From Phycisphaerae bacterium RAS2 (lineage in GTDB: Bacteria > Planctomycetota > Phycisphaerae > UBA1845 > UTPLA1): DNA of 64,000 bases. Below, piece by piece: positions 1,630 to 11,810 of the stretch. Below the pieces are notes generated by a model that saw nothing but the letters and a program-made list of their open reading frames with translations, was not told the DNA's origin and searched no databases. The number at the start of each line of letters is the position of its first letter. The stretch's first letter is position 1. A program made the translations under genes and the position numbers. The DNA lies in the NCBI GenBank assembly GCA_007753915.1, contig CP036352.1:496001-560000 (forward strand), given 5' to 3'.

Positions 1630-3327
<1,698 letters not shown>

Positions 3328-3712
3328 CTGTGCAGGTCTCCTTTTGGACGTAGCCGAATGCGTGTGATCGGGTGGCGTATGCCTGTGATTTGTTTGCGGG
3401 AGGGGCGTCCGCCGCCCCGGTTCAGACCGTCTCCTCGTTCATGCGTCGAGCATCATGAGCAAGCCATGTGCCGAGGTGGGGCAGCCAATGCCTTGTTAGC
3501 GTAAGTGGCTGTTAGTGCTTGTTTTACCGCCAAACCAGGGCAATGTCGTCTGCCGGAGAATCAAGGAGAGAGTCTGCCACAAAGGCAGCCGCCGACGGGT
3601 AGACTGCCGAACTGTCACGAAGCCTCCAATGAGGTTTGGGGCCGGGGGAGCAGGCTCGCAAGGGTCAATGCGGAGTAAACTGGCCCGGGAATTCACACGA
3701 CCGGAGCCGTCC
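3328..3712. other. Divergent intergenic region between groEL and the Rieske oxygenase gene
   Basis: No supported gene lies in these 385 bases. A hairpin with arms GGGGCG and CGCCCC (3402-3418) falls in the presumed groEL leader. No CIRCE palindrome (TTAGCACTC-N9-GAGTGCTAA) is present; TTAGCGTAAGTGG near 3496 is only a weak partial resemblance. Promoters for both genes must lie here, but none is convincing by eye. Confidence 0.5.
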
Positions 3713-4837
3713 ATGAGCGAACATGTTCAGTCCATTCTCCGCCAGTATGACCCGACCGCGCCGCTGGAGAAGGCGTGGACCATTCCCGCGCCGTGGTACA
3801 CCGACCCGGCGGTAGCGGCGCTCGAGCAGCAGGCGGTGTTCGGGGCGGGTTGGCAGTACGTCGCGCCGTTGGATCGGCTCGAAGCGCCGGGTTCGTTCGC
3901 GACGGCGGTTGTCGCCGGGGAGCCGATCGTGGTCGTGCGCGGTCGGGATGGCACGCTGCGGGCGTTTTTCAACGTGTGTCGTCATCATGCGGCGGCCGTG
4001 GCGACGGAGGAGTGCGGGTCGTGCTCGGTGCTGCGCTGCCCGTATCACGGGTGGACGTATGATCTCGACGGGCGTCTGAAAGGCGCGCCGGAGTTCGAGG
4101 GGGTGGAGGGCTTTGACCGCGACGCGTCGGGGCTGATGCCCGTGGCCGTGGAGACGTGGGAGCGGTTTGTGTTTGTGCGGCTCTCGGACAAAGGCATGTC
4201 GCTGAAGGAGCATCTCGGTGACATGGCGGCGGGGGTGGCGAAGCTGGATTTGGCGCGGTTGAAATTCTTCGAGCGGCGGCGGTGGACCCTCAACTGCAAT
4301 TGGAAGGTGTACGTCGATAACTACCTCGACGGCGGGTATCACGTCCCGCACTTGCACAAGAGTCTAAGCACCGTGCTGGAATACAGCGATTACCAGATCG
4401 AAAACGGCGCGCGATTCTGCCTGCAACACAGCCCGCTCAAGAGCGGCAAGGACGCCGAGACGGCCGCCGTGCGCAAGGGCGATCGGGCGTATTATTACTG
4501 GCTGCATCCGAACTTCATGCTGAACTGGTATGAGGGGGTGATGGATGTGAATCTCGTGCTGCCGCTGGGGCCGGACCGGTGCGAGGTGATCTTTGATTTC
4601 TTCTTCGACGACGTAGGCGAGTCTGCGGCGGCGCGGAATCGCGCGAGCCTGGCCGTCGGTGAACGTGTGCAGCAGGAGGATATCGACATTTGCGAGGCGG
4701 TGCAGCGCGGGCTGCACAGCCGGGCGTACGTGGCGGGGCGGCTAAGCGTGCGGCGCGAGGCAGGCGAGTATTTGTTTCATCGGTTGCTGCATGCGGATTT
4801 GGCGGCGGGGACTTCGTCGCCTTCGCCTCGATTGTGA
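3713..4837 (+). CDS. Rieske-type ring-hydroxylating oxygenase, catalytic subunit
   Basis: A 374-aa protein of the aromatic-ring-hydroxylating/choline-monooxygenase-like family, which uses a Rieske [2Fe-2S] centre and a mononuclear iron for O2-dependent hydroxylation or demethylation. Rieske ligands are Cys89 and His91 (CRHH) and Cys109 and His112 (CPYHGW). The mononuclear iron site is DNYLDGGYHVPHLH with His210 and His215. ATG 3713 was preferred because upstream in-frame sequence is not domain-like and GGAG lies about 8 nt before it. No reductase or ferredoxin gene is adjacent, so the electron donor and substrate are unknown. Confidence 0.9.
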   Translation: MSEHVQSILRQYDPTAPLEKAWTIPAPWYTDPAVAALEQQAVFGAGWQYVAPLDRLEAPGSFATAVVAGEPIVVVRGRDGTLRAFFNVCRHHAAAVATEECGSCSVLRCPYHGWTYDLDGRLKGAPEFEGVEGFDRDASGLMPVAVETWERFVFVRLSDKGMSLKEHLGDMAAGVAKLDLARLKFFERRRWTLNCNWKVYVDNYLDGGYHVPHLHKSLSTVLEYSDYQIENGARFCLQHSPLKSGKDAETAAVRKGDRAYYYWLHPNFMLNWYEGVMDVNLVLPLGPDRCEVIFDFFFDDVGESAAARNRASLAVGERVQQEDIDICEAVQRGLHSRAYVAGRLSVRREAGEYLFHRLLHADLAAGTSSPSPRL

Positions 4838-4896
4838 TCGCTGAAGTGATTTCGCCCAGTTGGGGTGCGCGGGCGTTGCCAGGGGCGCGGCGAGCC

Positions 4897-5232
4897 TTAG
4901 CGCCGCTTACCTGATTCCATCAGCGCCTGTTCCAGAATTTCGGCCGCGACCTGCATCGGGCTGATCTTCCGCTCGCGATTGCTAAGCTTCTCGGCCAGAT
5001 CGCCAAGCTTTCTTTTTGTTGATGCCGACATGGGAATCTTGCCGCGATGCTTCCAGCGGCGATCGGTCGGGCGGCCCGGCCGTTTGCCCCTGCCCGGCTT
5101 CAGCCGGTGCTTAAGCGAGCGAACGATGGAAGCCAGTCTGGCAGCGCCGAATGCACCGCCGCCCACCTCCGGCAATTCCGCGATGATCTCCGCGCCGAGC
5201 GATTCAGCAACTTTGTCGATTTTCCGGGCCAT
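4897..5232 (-). CDS. Small basic protein, second gene of a two-gene unit
   Basis: A 111-aa protein of unknown function, rich in Lys/Arg in the middle (RLKPGRGKRPGRPTDRRW). The C-terminal third (KISPMQVAAEILEQAL) looks like a short helical dimerisation or ribbon-helix-helix-like segment. ATG 5232 was preferred over GTG 5241, with AGCAGGG 8 nt upstream. It starts 24 nt after the stop of the gene at 5257-5646 and shares its promoter. The basic character and the operator-like palindrome upstream would suit a DNA-binding antitoxin-like partner, but that is inference and no named family was recognised. Confidence 0.7.
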   Translation of the reverse strand: MARKIDKVAESLGAEIIAELPEVGGGAFGAARLASIVRSLKHRLKPGRGKRPGRPTDRRWKHRGKIPMSASTKRKLGDLAEKLSNRERKISPMQVAAEILEQALMESGKRR

Positions 5233-5256
5233 GATCGTCACCCTGCTTCCGCCAAC

Positions 5257-5646
5257 TTACTCAACTGGAAACCGTATCTCAATGTAGTGCCGGTCAACGA
5301 CGAATCCTACGGCTCCCTGATGAGTCGCACGGCCCATTCCCTCCAGGAAGTCCCGCAAGGCCGACGCCTGTCTCGTAATGGACGACATCGTGGTGTAACA
5401 CTGAATCACCACCGGTTCGTCAAACAGCAATTTGCCGCCCTGGTCATCGTCTCGCCAGACGCCCTTGCCGCGCGGGAAGGCCGTCGCACCCCCAAAGAGC
5501 CGCCCGAGGGTTGCCAGTGCCTTCCGGACCCATTGATCCTGATCGACCGGCCGGCTTTTTCGGTCGTGGCTCGGAATGAACAAGACCAGCAGCGTCGATG
5601 CGGTCTTGGAGGCATGCAGGGCATGCCCGATGGATTTATCTTTCAT
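5257..5646 (-). CDS. Conserved-looking hypothetical protein, first gene of a two-gene unit
   Basis: A 129-aa soluble protein of no recognised family, with the motif GVWRDDDQGGKLLFDEPVV and a C-terminus ending in HYIEIRFPVE. A TTGACT/TATACT promoter with a 17-nt spacer ends only 11 nt before ATG 5646. Transcription should therefore start about 3-5 nt before the start codon, giving an almost leaderless mRNA with no room for a Shine-Dalgarno motif. The second gene at 4897-5232 follows. Size, pairing and an operator-like palindrome in the promoter resemble toxin-antitoxin units, but no toxin fold is identifiable. Confidence 0.75.
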   Translation of the reverse strand: MKDKSIGHALHASKTASTLLVLFIPSHDRKSRPVDQDQWVRKALATLGRLFGGATAFPRGKGVWRDDDQGGKLLFDEPVVIQCYTTMSSITRQASALRDFLEGMGRATHQGAVGFVVDRHYIEIRFPVE

Positions 5647-5657
5647 TCACTGAATCC

Positions 5658-5686
5658 AGTATAGTACTTTTTGCCCAAAAAGTCAA
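5658..5686 (-). promoter_or_regulatory. Sigma-70 promoter of the 5646/5232 gene pair
   Basis: On the minus strand the -35 is TTGACT (5681-5686) and the -10 is TATACT (5658-5663), with a 17-nt spacer. Each hexamer is one base from consensus, and this is the best promoter in the window. The -10 to ATG distance of 11 nt implies a near-leaderless transcript. Confidence 0.85.
5666..5683. promoter_or_regulatory. Operator-like palindrome inside the promoter spacer
   Basis: ACTTTTTG and CAAAAAGT form perfect 8-bp arms around a 2-bp centre and occupy the spacer between -35 and -10. A repressor bound here would block RNA polymerase. Autoregulation by one of the two downstream products is a reasonable guess. 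Confidence 0.65.
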
Positions 5687-5723
5687 AGAAGGGTTCGTGG
5701 CCTGCCCGTTCCTAATCTAGCCC

Positions 5724-6587
5724 TTAGATATTGAACGCATACAACAGCGCCGTCACAGCCACGTCGGCGGTGATGAGCGCGACGATGCATTTGACGACCG
5801 TGTTGGTGGTCGCGCGGCCCACGCCTTCGGCGCCGCCGGTGACGTTGAGGCCCTCGTAGCAGGCGATGATGGCGATGAGCAGGCCGAAGATGGGGCCTTT
5901 GCCCAGGCCGCTAAGAAAATCCTTTACGGTGACGGCAGCCTGCGTGGCGGAGAGGTAGCGATCGGGCGTGATATTCAAGACACCTGTCGCGGTGATGAAT
6001 CCACCGAGCACGCCGACGACATCGGCGATGACGATCAGCATGGTGAGCATGATGACCGTGGCGAGAAAGCGCGGCATGACGAGGAATCGCACGGGGTTCA
6101 GGGCGATGGCGCGAAGGGCTTTGATTTCCTCGCCCTCGACCATCGTGCCCAGCTCGGCGGCGATGCTGGCGCCGGCGAAGCCCGAGAGCACAATGCCCGA
6201 CAGCAGCGGCCCCAGCTCGCGGAACATGGCGATGACGACAATGTCGGCGATGCGTTCGATCTGGCCGTAGTTGCGCAGCGTCGGGGCCATTTGCAGGCTC
6301 AAGATGATGCCGATGAAGGTCTGCACGAGGGCGATGATGGGGATGCTGCGGATGCCGACGCGAACCATTTGCGACAGCAGGTTTTCGTAGCCGATGGGGG
6401 CCTCGCGGCGAATGGCGGTGCGGTGGAGCCAGGAGAAGGTGTCGGCGACGAGGTAGATCATGCCGCCGAGCATGGCAACGACGCGACGGCCGTTCTCCGC
6501 ACCGGAGAGGACGCCCTCGCCGAGCGCGGTGACGCCGCGCTGCCAGGCGGAGGGGAGCGGGTCGGATTGGGCGGGGGTGTCGCTCAT
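5724..6587 (-). CDS. MlaE-type ABC transporter permease
   Basis: A 287-aa integral inner-membrane permease of the MlaE/YrbE family, which moves phospholipids or other hydrophobic compounds between envelope membranes together with an MlaF ATPase and an MCE substrate-binding protein. Signature stretches are FRELGPLLSGIVLSGFAG, AAELGTMVEGEEIKAL and the C-terminal GGAEGVGRATTNTVV, with five or so hydrophobic segments. No MlaF or MCE gene is in the window, so they may lie elsewhere. It is downstream of a STAS gene on the same strand, 170 nt away. Because MlaB is also a STAS protein, this order may be functional rather than accidental. Confidence 0.92.
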   Translation of the reverse strand: MSDTPAQSDPLPSAWQRGVTALGEGVLSGAENGRRVVAMLGGMIYLVADTFSWLHRTAIRREAPIGYENLLSQMVRVGIRSIPIIALVQTFIGIILSLQMAPTLRNYGQIERIADIVVIAMFRELGPLLSGIVLSGFAGASIAAELGTMVEGEEIKALRAIALNPVRFLVMPRFLATVIMLTMLIVIADVVGVLGGFITATGVLNITPDRYLSATQAAVTVKDFLSGLGKGPIFGLLIAIIACYEGLNVTGGAEGVGRATTNTVVKCIVALITADVAVTALLYAFNI

Positions 6588-6605
6588 GAGTCACACACAA
6601 AGTGA

Positions 6606-6691
6606 GCCGCGGGTTTCAACCCGCGCGGCGCTGAATGCGCGATCGACCGTTCACACTTGTTCATAAGGCCGCGCGAGCTGAAGCTCGCGGC
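6606..6691. repeat. Two REP-like GC-rich inverted repeats
   Basis: The hairpin at 6606-6629 has arms GCCGCGGGTT and AACCCGCGCGGC. The hairpin at 6668-6691 has arms GCCGCGCGAGCT and AGCTCGCGGC. They share their outer ends (GCCGCG...CGCGGC-like) and sit between the STAS gene and mlaE. They could stabilise or separate the two parts of the transcript. Confidence 0.6.
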
Positions 6692-6721
6692 TCGTTAAAT
6701 TTCGCTCGCGGCTCGGAAGAA

Positions 6722-6749
6722 CTCGATCGCTTGCGCGATATCGGCTCAT
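6722..6749. repeat. Dispersed hairpin, copy 2
   Basis: CGATCGCTTGCGCGATATCG followed by GCTCATT. It is a copy of the 1588 and 16381 element with a 2-nt insertion in the 3' arm, located just past the stop codon of the STAS gene at 6758. Confidence 0.5.
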
Positions 6750-6757
6750 TTGCATCG

Positions 6758-7105
6758 TTATGCCGTCAGGGCGGTGGCCTGATCGTCACAAATCGTGAAG
6801 AACTTATCCAGCTTGGTGATCTCAAACACGCTGCGCACGCGCGGGTTCATTCCGAAGAGTACCATCTTGCCCTTGTAGTCGCGCACGCGGCGGAACACCT
6901 CGACCAGCGTGCCGACGCCCGACGAATCCATGTACGGCACTTCGCGCAGGTCCAGTACCAACCGCTTGGGCCGCTCACCGGCCACGTCGGCCAGCGCCGC
7001 ATGCAGGGCCGGCGAATGGTGCAGGTCGATGTCGCCGCCGAGGACGACGACCGTCCCGTCGGTGTGCTTGTCGATGCTCTTCACAAGGCCCGAGTTTTCC
7101 GCCAT
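6758..7105 (-). CDS. STAS-domain anti-sigma factor antagonist
   Basis: A 115-aa STAS protein of the SpoIIAA/RsbV type. In the known partner-switching cycle the unphosphorylated antagonist binds the anti-sigma kinase and frees the sigma factor, and phosphorylation on a conserved Ser reverses this. The Ser lies in MDSSGVGTL, preceded by VLDLREVPY. ATG 7105 (MAENSGL) was preferred over the longer frame from 7144 because it gives a normal STAS N-terminus and has GAGAAG upstream. The partner kinase gene at 7233-7688 is immediately upstream. As mlaE follows, an MlaB-like role is an alternative, though MlaB does not need the phosphorylatable Ser. Confidence 0.9.
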   Translation of the reverse strand: MAENSGLVKSIDKHTDGTVVVLGGDIDLHHSPALHAALADVAGERPKRLVLDLREVPYMDSSGVGTLVEVFRRVRDYKGKMVLFGMNPRVRSVFEITKLDKFFTICDDQATALTA

Positions 7106-7232
7106 GACTGACTTCTCTTTCCCGACGGCGCCGCCACCATCCATCCGACGCCGCTGTCTATCGAAAAAAGCCGGCTCATCCCTGTCTTGCCGGCCGACTT
7201 ATTGCCGCATCCGCCGCGCCGCCCTGATTGCA

Positions 7233-7688
7233 TCAGGCCGAAGCACCGCCCGCCGGTTGCGGCGACACGTACTTTACCATGTCGAGCTGCATTCCGCCGT
7301 CGGGCGGGCAACTGTATTCAAACGAGTCCATCACGGTCTGGATGATGTGCACACCCAGTCCGCCGGGCCGCACGTCCTCCAGATTGCGACTGCGAATCGT
7401 CGCCGGATCGACCTGTCGCCCCTGATCGCGCACGGTCACGGCGATGCCCGGTCGGCCGTCGTTCGACTTCACGGGGGCGAGCGTGATCTGAATCGGCTGG
7501 TCGGGCTTGCCCTCGTAGCCGTGCTTGATGACGTTGGAAAGCGCTTCGTCGATGGCCCAGGTGAGCGCGTGGGCGTCGGTCTCGCCGAAGCCTTCGAGGC
7601 CCGCCATGCGTTCGACGGCCCCGCGCACGATCGGCAGGCTCTTGGTGCTGCTGTTGATCGACAGTTCCACGCGATTGGAATCTGACAT
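7233..7688 (-). CDS. RsbW/SpoIIAB-like anti-sigma factor serine kinase
   Basis: A 151-aa GHKL-type ATPase. The N box is DEALSNVIKHGYEG, the G1 box VRDQGRQVDP and the G2 box RPGGLGVHII. In this family the protein binds a sigma factor and phosphorylates its STAS antagonist, here most likely the product at 6758-7105. The start codon overlaps the stop of the lipoprotein gene upstream (TGATG), so translation is probably coupled. No sigma factor gene lies nearby, so the target is unknown. Confidence 0.92.
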   Translation of the reverse strand: MSDSNRVELSINSSTKSLPIVRGAVERMAGLEGFGETDAHALTWAIDEALSNVIKHGYEGKPDQPIQITLAPVKSNDGRPGIAVTVRDQGRQVDPATIRSRNLEDVRPGGLGVHIIQTVMDSFEYSCPPDGGMQLDMVKYVSPQPAGGASA

Positions 7689-8134
7689 CAGTCTCTGACC
7701 TCTTCGGGGGCGACGCTTCCCGATCCAAAACGCTCGACGGCCGGCGTTGTTTCCTGCCGGGGATTGCCCTGGTTCATCGACACCTTGTGCGCGCCCTGGT
7801 CAATGTAGGCGCGCCAGCGCTGAATGGCGGCGAGGCGTTCGGCGCTGCTCTGGCCCGACTCCAGCCCGAATCGCTCGCCCGTAAGTCGCTCCAGCGCCAG
7901 CATGGCGAAGAACTGCACGCCGTTGTCTTCGTCTTCGAGGCGGTCCACGATGAGCGGGACGGCTGACCGGTCACCGGCCTTGGCAGCAGCCTGGACGGCC
8001 ATGATGCGCTCGGTGGGGTCGTCGGAATTGAAATTGGCGCGATACGGCGGGATGTTGCAGCCGACCAGGGCGAGGCAGAGCATGGCCCAGCCATGGGAGA
8101 GGGATCGTCGGGATGGGCGGCGCTGAACGGTCAA
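7688..8134 (-). CDS. HEAT-like repeat lipoprotein
   Basis: A 148-aa secreted lipoprotein. The N-terminus is basic, followed by AMLCLALVGC with a lipobox Cys. The body has one or two HEAT/PBS-like units (ERIMAVQAAAKAGDRSAVPLIVDRLEDED). The only start giving a complete signal peptide is TTG at 8134, supported by GCAGGAG about 8 nt upstream. It overlaps the anti-sigma kinase gene and is first in the lipoprotein-kinase-STAS-mlaE run. A sensory role for the switch is possible but unproven. Confidence 0.82.
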   Translation of the reverse strand: MTVQRRPSRRSLSHGWAMLCLALVGCNIPPYRANFNSDDPTERIMAVQAAAKAGDRSAVPLIVDRLEDEDNGVQFFAMLALERLTGERFGLESGQSSAERLAAIQRWRAYIDQGAHKVSMNQGNPRQETTPAVERFGSGSVAPEEVRD

Positions 8135-9788: not shown

Positions 9789-10628
9789 CTAATGCCCCAA
9801 GATCAATTTGGCGGGCTTGTGTTGAAGAGTCGTGCACAAGGGGCAGCGCACCATTTGATTTATGTCCAGTTCACAGTCCCAAGTCTTGCCGCAGGACGCA
9901 CAAGTTACTCTATTATCATTAACCCATGCAGCAACATGCTCGACGTGCGCAAGCCTAAACTCCAGGGTGCAGAGATCACAATACTTCTTGAAGACGGCTT
10001 CGGCGCCCGGGTCACCATCAAACAAAGCTGCGCGATGGTCATTATCATTGACAAAGTCCGAATACCCCCAGAAAGACACAGATTCGGCTCGCCTCATTTT
10101 GTATTTAACGTCACATCCAAATCGCCAATGACGAGAAATCTGTCCGTCTATCACCGAGAACAACTCAACGGGCACATGCAACAGTCGAGTTGAATCGAGC
10201 ACGTAGGTTGGGCTTTGAGGCGGATAGCAAAACATCGCGCAAACGACGTGAAATTCTCCCGCGAGCATTCCGTAGTCACGAAGAGCCCTTGCAGAGTGGT
10301 TTTGAATTGTCTGCACCAGCATTGTCGTTCGCTCCGTCCGGTCGATTACAGCTAACAATAGAAAGAAGTCGCGAAACCATCGAAATGGCTTGCGATGCAG
10401 AGGATTCTCCCCGATTCTGCTGACGGAGTAAACTGTCGTGTTTGGGCATCGCCACGGGTATGTGAATTGAGCGGGCCTGAAGCAGTTCAAGCATGGCAGA
10501 ACAGTCCAAACCAATTCCTTGGGTGCGCAGCCCAAAGTAACAATCAAGAATGCGGCTCCAGTCGCGTAGCGAAGGATGAAGGGCAACTTCTTAGTTCGCT
10601 TCATAACAGCCTTCTGTAGCGGACTCAT
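9789..10628 (-). CDS. Hypothetical lipoprotein with C-terminal zinc ribbon
   Basis: A 279-aa protein of no known family. A basic N-terminus leads to FLIVTLGC, a lipobox. Near the C-terminus CASCGKTWDCE...RCPLC supplies two CxxC pairs, a likely zinc ribbon. ATG 10628 overlaps the upstream stop as ATGA with GGAG 5 nt before it; ATG 10604 (MKRTKKLPF, AGAAGG upstream) is an equally good alternative. It is third in a run with 11220-11606 and 10625-11218. A decayed partial copy lies at 11643-11810. Base composition is visibly AT-richer than the flanks, hinting at acquisition. A zinc ribbon on an exported lipoprotein is odd, and the protein may instead be membrane-anchored with a cytosolic ribbon. 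Confidence 0.72.
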   Translation of the reverse strand: MSPLQKAVMKRTKKLPFILRYATGAAFLIVTLGCAPKELVWTVLPCLNCFRPAQFTYPWRCPNTTVYSVSRIGENPLHRKPFRWFRDFFLLLAVIDRTERTTMLVQTIQNHSARALRDYGMLAGEFHVVCAMFCYPPQSPTYVLDSTRLLHVPVELFSVIDGQISRHWRFGCDVKYKMRRAESVSFWGYSDFVNDNDHRAALFDGDPGAEAVFKKYCDLCTLEFRLAHVEHVAAWVNDNRVTCASCGKTWDCELDINQMVRCPLCTTLQHKPAKLILGH

Positions 10629-11642: not shown

Positions 11643-11810
11643 CTAGCCTGCGGTGAAGAAGTTGTAACGGCACATAGGATTCTCCCCCACGCGATTGACG
11701 GAGTAAACTGTCGGGTTTGGACAGCAGCAAGGGCAATGAAATAGACCGGGTTTGAAGTAAGTCAATTGAGGCTATAGCGTTGTGTCGGCGCGGCATTTCT
11801 TGGTTCGCAT
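11643..11810 (-). pseudogene. Decayed partial paralogue of the lipoprotein gene at 9789-10628
   Basis: One frame reads MRTKK, then a stop, then PNPTVYSVNRVGENP. This matches PNTTVYSVSRIGENP and the MKRTKK start of the lipoprotein at 9789-10628. Nucleotide similarity is plain as well: GACGGAGTAAACTGTCG occurs at both 10422-10440 and 11697-11715. The copy has an internal stop, lacks most of the signal-peptide region and ends at TAG 11643, just before the start of the three-gene unit. It looks like a relic of a tandem duplication. Confidence 0.7.

Follow-up and report, generated by a model that had tools for sequence, protein, structure and literature searches.

A mobile gene pair with a SAM-lyase-like first product and a predicted autorepressor in several bacterial phyla

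Results

A compact two-gene unit with an operator over its promoter

The window analysed here is the whole 64,000-nucleotide stretch of Phycisphaerae bacterium RAS2 (contig CP036352.1, positions 496,001 to 560,000), and all positions count from its first letter. On its minus strand lies a unit of two small genes, which we term P1 and P2, with the following features:

5681 to 5686, minus strand (read 5686 to 5681): -35 hexamer TTGACT
5666 to 5683, no strand assigned: operator palindrome ACTTTTTG-GG-CAAAAAGT, whole sequence ACTTTTTGGGCAAAAAGT, a perfect repeat; family consensus GACTTTTTGNNCAAAAAGTC
5658 to 5663, minus strand: -10 hexamer TATACT
5257 to 5646, minus strand: P1, 129 amino acids, resembling S-adenosylmethionine (SAM) lyases and assigned to the PII superfamily; signature T55, G62-x-W64, D76, Q110
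4897 to 5232, minus strand: P2, 111 amino acids, predicted DNA-binding autorepressor
4808 to 5725, no strand assigned: stretch without counterpart in the same-genus genome G001

The elements that the earlier note had named from the letters (TTGACT-N17-TATACT, a palindrome with 8-bp arms, an ATG 11 nt after the -10 hexamer, and products of 129 and 111 amino acids) are all present. The hexamers are 17 nt apart and the P1 ATG is at 5646. Its start had been called near-leaderless, which fits the sequence, and in 4 of the 12 loci of the window's class (class I, below) the gap from -10 hexamer to ATG is just 6-7 nt. The palindrome had also been said to fill the spacer; it does take up 15 of the 17 spacer nucleotides, and it also covers the final 3 nt of the -35 hexamer. 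P2 starts 24 nt after the P1 stop, and would be 114 amino acids long if the GTG at 5241 were taken as its start; judged by this spacing, the two genes are probably co-transcribed.

The unit is flanked by a reading frame at 3515-4837 (plus strand), which we take from its sequence to be a Rieske-type oxygenase-like protein, and by one at 5724-6587 (minus strand), presumably an MlaE-like permease. Elsewhere in the window, two minus-strand reading frames at 249-614 and 1630-3327 are presumably GroEL-like, and the open reading frame between them (1212-1520) presumably GroES-like. A 93-nt element also occurs twice in the window (10398-10490 and 11673-11765), the copies being 73 percent identical and 1275 nt apart.

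We evaluated whether promoter and palindrome exceed chance. A scan of 3500-8000 found one promoter site, compared with 0.7 +/- 0.9 in shuffled sequence, and perfect palindromes (arms of 8 nt or longer, gaps of 0-4) number 14 in the window, so that each element occurs at chance frequency. These counts favour two unrelated small reading frames beside an accidental promoter-like site. The consensus GACTTTTTGNNCAAAAAGT, however, is found with up to 3 mismatches only at this place in the window, against 0.05 expected, and it recurs upstream of homologous pairs elsewhere; promoter and palindrome, at chance level by themselves, are therefore conserved in other genomes far above chance. Given that both proteins, the gene order and the operator are conserved across phyla, a fortuitous arrangement is refuted by the comparative data and we give it almost no weight.

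Neither window protein was matched by a Pfam, NCBIfam or PADLOC model at E values up to 10, and in this narrow sense the statement that the products belong to no known family holds. Among PHROGs, P1 matches only families with no assigned function (phrog_3543, E 2.5e-6) and P2 only weak ones.

The two genes recur together and vary together

P1 was present in 6 of 61 genomes by protein search (the genome searched from included), in 8 of the 392 genomes from its own phylum that a profile search covered (own genome counted), and in 3 of 198 genomes of the phylum to which the genome of locus L008 belongs (profile search, starting genome counted). A scan of GTDB species genomes yielded 21 P1 loci, whose record titles name Planctomycetota and subgroups, Nitrospirae, Thermoanaerobaculum, Myxococcales, Deltaproteobacteria, Coatesbacteria and Acidimicrobiales. 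At 25 of the 27 loci found first, the window copy counted, P2 lies directly downstream of P1 on the same strand, across several phyla. The two exceptions (L005 and L006) have a different partner of about 320 amino acids.

The earlier note had proposed checking whether the genes always co-occur. Adjacency is the rule among the loci found first; strict co-occurrence does not hold, and genes found apart were an outcome that the note had set against its own reading. The 392-genome search added 15 places, five of them with P2 by profile (L029, L030, L031, L036 and L040), one with a degenerate P2 recognised by eye (L042), eight with solo P1 and one a fragment (L035), and both new places from the 198-genome search carry P2. 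Searching 20 module-bearing genomes with P2 produced 12 further P2 loci, comprising four with intact P1, one with broken P1 and seven without P1. The genes thus stand apart at 2 of the 27 P1 loci found first, at 8 of the 15 places added by the 392-genome search and at 7 of the 12 P2 loci found with P2, and these separated genes are mostly members of distant subfamilies and orphan P2 genes.

Where both genes are present their histories agree. P1 and P2 tree distances correlate over 32 pairs (Mantel r 0.78; none of 5000 permutations as high) and within the 12 class-I pairs (r 0.70; again 0 of 5000), pairs with broken genes (L015, L025, L027, L040, L042, L077) having been left out. Two small genes kept together are a trait of type II toxin-antitoxin modules, and the pair shows it both in adjacency at 25 of 27 loci and in this co-variation. 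By sequence the pairs divide into four or more classes: I, which includes the window, II, III (L036, L042, L070, L072, L075, L082) and IV (L074, L083).

Two other arrangements were observed. At L005, L006, L045 and L046 a distant P1 relative, nearest to phrog_3543, lies directly upstream of the gene for about 320 amino acids, whose N-terminus resembles NQ[FY]AIS, and forms with it a second kind of pair. Neither the 320-residue partner of L005 nor the distant P1 and P2 members could be placed convincingly in a Pfam or NCBIfam family. Genome G097 carries five solo P1-like genes without P2 (L033, L037, L039, L041, L043; motif ...VPEGDR..GGATAYGRGVGVW..WDRVT) and one class-III copy (L042).

The operator is conserved and follows the class of P2

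At 36 pair loci we scanned as much as 260 nt of the sequence preceding P1 for the motifs GACTTTTTGNNCAAAAAGTC and CGATCTATATNNATCG. The control at each locus was a set of 200 stretches of the same length, drawn at random from its remaining sequence. The operator beat all 200 draws at 29 of 36 loci. In class I the first motif was found at 12 of 17 loci with 0-3 mismatches, the best control having at least 6 at each; class-I-type loci L013, L015, L026, L030 and L031 had no operator upstream of P1. Class II has CGATCTATATNNATCG instead, at 11 of 11 loci with 0-1 mismatches (controls 3 or more). Four of the six class-III and both class-IV loci carry a diverged first motif that beats their own controls at 4-5 mismatches, and in the remaining class-III loci, L070 and L075, the motif merely equals the controls.

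The promoter frame is retained along with the operator. TTGACT or a one-base variant occurs at the same operator offset in 11 of 12 class-I loci (the scan mis-anchored L011), the hexamer overlapping the motif and being followed 16-18 nt on by a -10-like hexamer. Throughout the 443,059 bases of DNA fetched, a total that counts overlapping loci, the exact core GACTTTN8AAAGT was found at 12 distinct places, every one upstream of a P1-P2 pair, and in the host genome the palindrome occurs once within 2 mismatches, at the pair. Locus L014 has two operator copies in tandem, upstream of position 3971, and a P2 fragment at 3712-3897, all of them upstream of the pair; it is a partial duplication of the module.

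The operator class switches together with the P2 class. The operator goes with P2 rather than with P1, because two orphan P2 loci have kept it after loss of P1 (L068 with 3 mismatches; L079 with 2 mismatches to the class-III form) and the exact core is found at none of the P1 loci lacking P2. Five other orphan P2 loci have no operator. Repression through a palindromic operator is a further trait of type II toxin-antitoxin modules, and here the operator is conserved across loci with P2 as its predicted regulator. Consistent with the earlier proposal of an autoregulated two-gene module, which these data bear out, the pair is conserved and patchily spread, with a conserved operator palindrome and agreeing trees. 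On sequence evidence, P2 probably acts at the operator as the repressor of its own operon, and it is highly likely that the unit is a conserved autoregulated operon.

P1 has the predicted fold of phage SAM lyases and keeps their ligand-contact positions

The AlphaFold2 monomer model of P1 has a mean pLDDT of 93. Searched against the PDB with Foldseek, it retrieved the two entries of the phage SAM lyase Svi3-3 first (5.1e-5 and 7.4e-5) and CutA1 next (6.1e-4). VIA gave the same order, with Svi3-3 at Z 10.9 (3.4 Å, 120 residues aligned) and 10.1 and CutA1 at 8.4. In a viral library the best matches were unnamed phage proteins, with annotated SAM hydrolases lower. A PII-like ferredoxin fold nearest to a SAM lyase, the mark of the SAM-lyase family, is thus predicted by the model. 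SAM lyases, which some phages use to destroy the methyl donor SAM, are trimeric PII-superfamily enzymes.

Sequence profiles gave a weaker connection. Profile A3, built from phage relatives, a Priestia DUF3574 protein, classes III and IV and L006, with no class-I or class-II row, reached Svi3-3 at E 0.056, third of the 9 PDB matches listed and under two kinases at 0.021-0.023. In this alignment the T-G-x-[WY]-[DE]-Q columns fall on Svi3-3 S50-G56-Y58-E69-Q104, in numbering that agrees with the residues named in PMC7877911, where these five are ligand contacts and where E69Q and E69A cost Svi3-3 4500- and 1500-fold. With profile A1, built from the window's own subfamilies, Svi3-3 was not among the PDB matches even at an E limit of 10, and A2, A4 and two single phage relatives returned no meaningful relative there by sequence.

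A multiple alignment of P1-like rows carries the A3 columns to T55, G62, W64, D76 and Q110 of window P1. Of its 49 rows 47 were counted, the solo genes L041 and L043 being out of frame; these two remain inside the P1 profile used for hhalign. The acidic residue (36 D, 11 E) and Q are found in 47 of 47 rows, T in 46, and G and the aromatic residue in the column in 46, with the G-S-Y of L006 shifted by one column. Window P1 shares G and Q with Svi3-3 and has W for Y58 and D for E69. Class IV has E and Y as in Svi3-3, and E at the catalytic position is kept in subfamilies III and IV and in the phage relatives. The D-for-E change matters, because E69Q and E69A nearly abolish Svi3-3 activity.

In hhalign the P1 profiles also align with phage relatives and with a DUF3574 protein of Priestia (probability 99.2 percent, 2.5e-19), the former from Lactobacillus phage Maenad, Bacillus phage vB_BcoS-136 and a phage-like Bacillus licheniformis record. 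Two family assignments were rejected. Membership of the T3 SAMase family failed the profile test (hhalign probability 0.2-0.4 percent); a T3 SAMase search of the PDB by sequence returns its own entries only, and the eLife paper PMC7877911 itself calls the similarity of T3 and Svi3-3 barely detectable. DUF3574 (PF12098) had no match in window P1, and the best class-III P1 scored 15.4 against a 25-bit cut-off.

The reading of P1 as unassignable to any family is not supported, since P1 shares its predicted fold and its conserved residues with phage SAM lyases. We are confident that it belongs to the SAM-lyase branch of the PII superfamily, and it probably binds SAM or a derivative. That it also cleaves such a compound is slightly less likely than not.

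The same comparisons bear on the strongest rival to a toxin-antitoxin role, namely that P1 is a non-catalytic PII-like sensor of SAM or another nucleotide that alters DNA binding by P2, with no toxin in the pair. The PII superfamily is mostly sensory according to PMC7877911 and PMC12255297, CutA1 and PII-like proteins follow directly after Svi3-3 in the fold ranking, and it is precisely at the E and Y of Svi3-3 that window P1 has D and W. An operator found once in the host genome, only beside the pair, would also suit such a sensor; yet a pair that controls just its own operon, without a downstream target gene, has no evident output. Retention of the catalytic E in subfamilies III, IV and the phage relatives also speaks against a sensor, as does the more frequent loss or breakage of P1 than of P2. 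We consider a purely sensory pair unlikely.

P2 is a putative repressor

P2 consists of a conserved N-terminal region (LGAE...GGGAFGAA), a basic GRP-containing linker, which to us is reminiscent of an AT-hook, and a C-terminal strand-helix-helix. Its model (pLDDT 71) has two C-terminal helices and is best matched by TTHA0139, at Z 4.6 and 4.5 over 51-52 residues among 22 chains compared.

Comparison of P2 with ribbon-helix-helix (RHH) proteins by hhalign gave a probability of 16 percent and a score of 18.8, against 14.4 for the best of 100 shuffles and 14.7 for the reversed sequence. Among 25 P2 members searched against Pfam RHH models, RHH_5 matched two (best 0.0074) and RHH_1 one (0.11), and on three members HTH_32 outscores every RHH model (4.3e-4). 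Window P2 had no Pfam RHH match at E up to 10, and the PDB profile search with P2 returned no RHH chain. A ribbon-helix-helix C-terminus is plausible and weakly supported.

The pair is patchily spread and shows signs of decay

In G001, a genome of the same genus, window positions 3000-4180, 4193-4807 and 5726-6666 are matched at 85-92 percent, and 4808-5725 is replaced by 345 unrelated nucleotides between the matching flanks. The replacement (L093:3916-4260) contains, by eye, a long G+C-rich inverted repeat. At L016 the module lies between two perfect 75-nt direct repeats (3680-3754 and 4647-4721), as after insertion or recombination; this locus was the only one of 12 regions tested for flanking direct repeats to be positive. 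Absence at the G001 place, together with presence in 6 of 61, 8 of 392 and 3 of 198 genomes, amounts to the patchy, horizontally moving spread that is another trait of type II toxin-antitoxin modules.

P1 is broken beside a readable P2 at five loci (L015, L025, L027, L040, L077) and P2 beside an intact P1 at one (L042); most of these are metagenome assemblies, in which sequencing errors may make such calls uncertain. This asymmetry is an indirect hint that P1 may be toxic and that P2 may neutralise it, as in type II toxin-antitoxin modules.

We looked for a link to defence islands or CRISPR and found no general association. Across 88 of the 120 listed neighbouring reading frames no Pfam family occurred in more than two, and the PADLOC matches included BrxA (1), BrxB (1) and type IIG enzymes (2), top models being found in 1-2 frames each. 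With matches accepted to an E value of 0.001, Cmr2 was detected in 4 of the 21 genomes that bear the module, two of them over the cut-off, and not in the host; a role in type III CRISPR signalling through SAM-AMP is not indicated, because Cmr2 is so rare among module-bearing genomes and absent from the host.

These searches also weigh on the next rival, a counter-defence or auxiliary-defence cassette in which P1 lowers SAM or degrades a SAM-derived messenger such as SAM-AMP, so that mobile DNA on entry escapes restriction, BREX or signalling by type III CRISPR, and P2 silences P1 until then. According to PMC12255297, phages use SAM lyases against restriction and BREX, and a SAM-AMP lyase of phage origin has been proposed to act as an anti-CRISPR. 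P1 does have clear phage relatives, at the hhalign probability given above. Viral contigs yielded no copy of the pair, neither A1 nor A2 being matched there, and the class-I operator pattern has no exact match in them. In phage and plasmid collections P0001 and the P1 of L026 had no match, the P1 of L006 gave short chance-like pieces only (E 6-7), and other P1 members retrieved weak DUF3574 and phage relatives. With the sparse Cmr2 and PADLOC matches added, we judge a counter-defence cassette improbable.

Discussion

Together these data give good support to a mobile autorepressed pair with a SAM-lyase-like first protein. As an overall explanation we favour a small mobile module of toxin-antitoxin type, which we hold with about even confidence; that P1 is toxic and P2 its antitoxin is a putative assignment that we regard as somewhat doubtful.

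These data allow us to propose a mechanism. P1 and P2 would be expressed from one promoter whose inverted-repeat operator lies in the -35/spacer region, and P2, by sitting on this operator, would shut down its own operon. P1 would bind SAM or a SAM-like adenosine compound and, once free of control, remove it; on the model of Svi3-3, SAM would be converted to methylthioadenosine and homoserine lactone. Such removal may slow the cell or starve methylation. P2 would restrain P1 by repression, and may also do so by contacting it directly with the conserved N-terminal region. In this scheme P1 would be a SAM-destroying effector and P2 would serve as its antitoxin.

In its widest form, our proposal is that a cellular branch of the phage SAM-lyase superfamily has become part of a mobile two-gene module that represses itself. 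The module would be a toxin-antitoxin or abortive-infection system of a new kind, acting by destruction of S-adenosylmethionine or a SAM-derived messenger, with at least four subfamilies and two unrelated operator types in several bacterial phyla. We advance it tentatively. For a widespread unnamed gene pair these results supply a predicted fold and a candidate active site, together with a putative regulator and its operator. If P1 cleaves SAM, the pair would connect the anti-restriction enzymes of phages with a switch for stress or defence in cells, and would be, within open-licence PubMed Central papers, the first toxin-antitoxin-like module with a SAM-destroying effector; searches of such papers, PMC12839542, PMC11065993 and PMC2701414 included, showed no description of a SAM-lyase-like toxin-antitoxin pair.

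DUF3574, like phrog_3543 a family with no assigned function, resembles P1 at E 0.017 on a class-III member, Priestia DUF3574 proteins appear in tblastn, and one of these has the same T-G-x-aromatic-acidic-Q signature; it differs in that the score is under the cut-off and the Priestia gene inspected has no P2-like neighbour. The family phrog_3543 is a weak match to window P1. Type II toxin-antitoxin modules in which the regulator comes second include BrnTA, HigBA and MqsRA. P1-P2 shares with them two short co-directional genes, a small predicted DNA-binding second product, an operator over the promoter and a patchy spread, and differs from them in that neither protein matches those families in Pfam or NCBIfam and in that P1 is a SAM-lyase relative, not RNase-type.

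The SAM-AMP lyase of CorA-associated type III CRISPR, compared with P1 by description, is a PII-superfamily trimer related to SAM lyase with a conserved acidic residue and Q (PMC12255297); it sits in type III CRISPR loci, whereas no general CRISPR link was found for P1. The closest structural match is Svi3-3 (PDB 6zm9, 6znb). At about 13 percent identity, window P1 departs from it in having D for E69, W for Y58 and G for E105, and the phage enzyme contrasts with a P1 that is chromosomal, tied to a partner gene and an operator, and putative in its lyase activity. The two share the fold over 120 of 129 residues, the pairs S50/T, G56/G and Q104/Q, an acidic residue at E69 and an aromatic residue at Y58.
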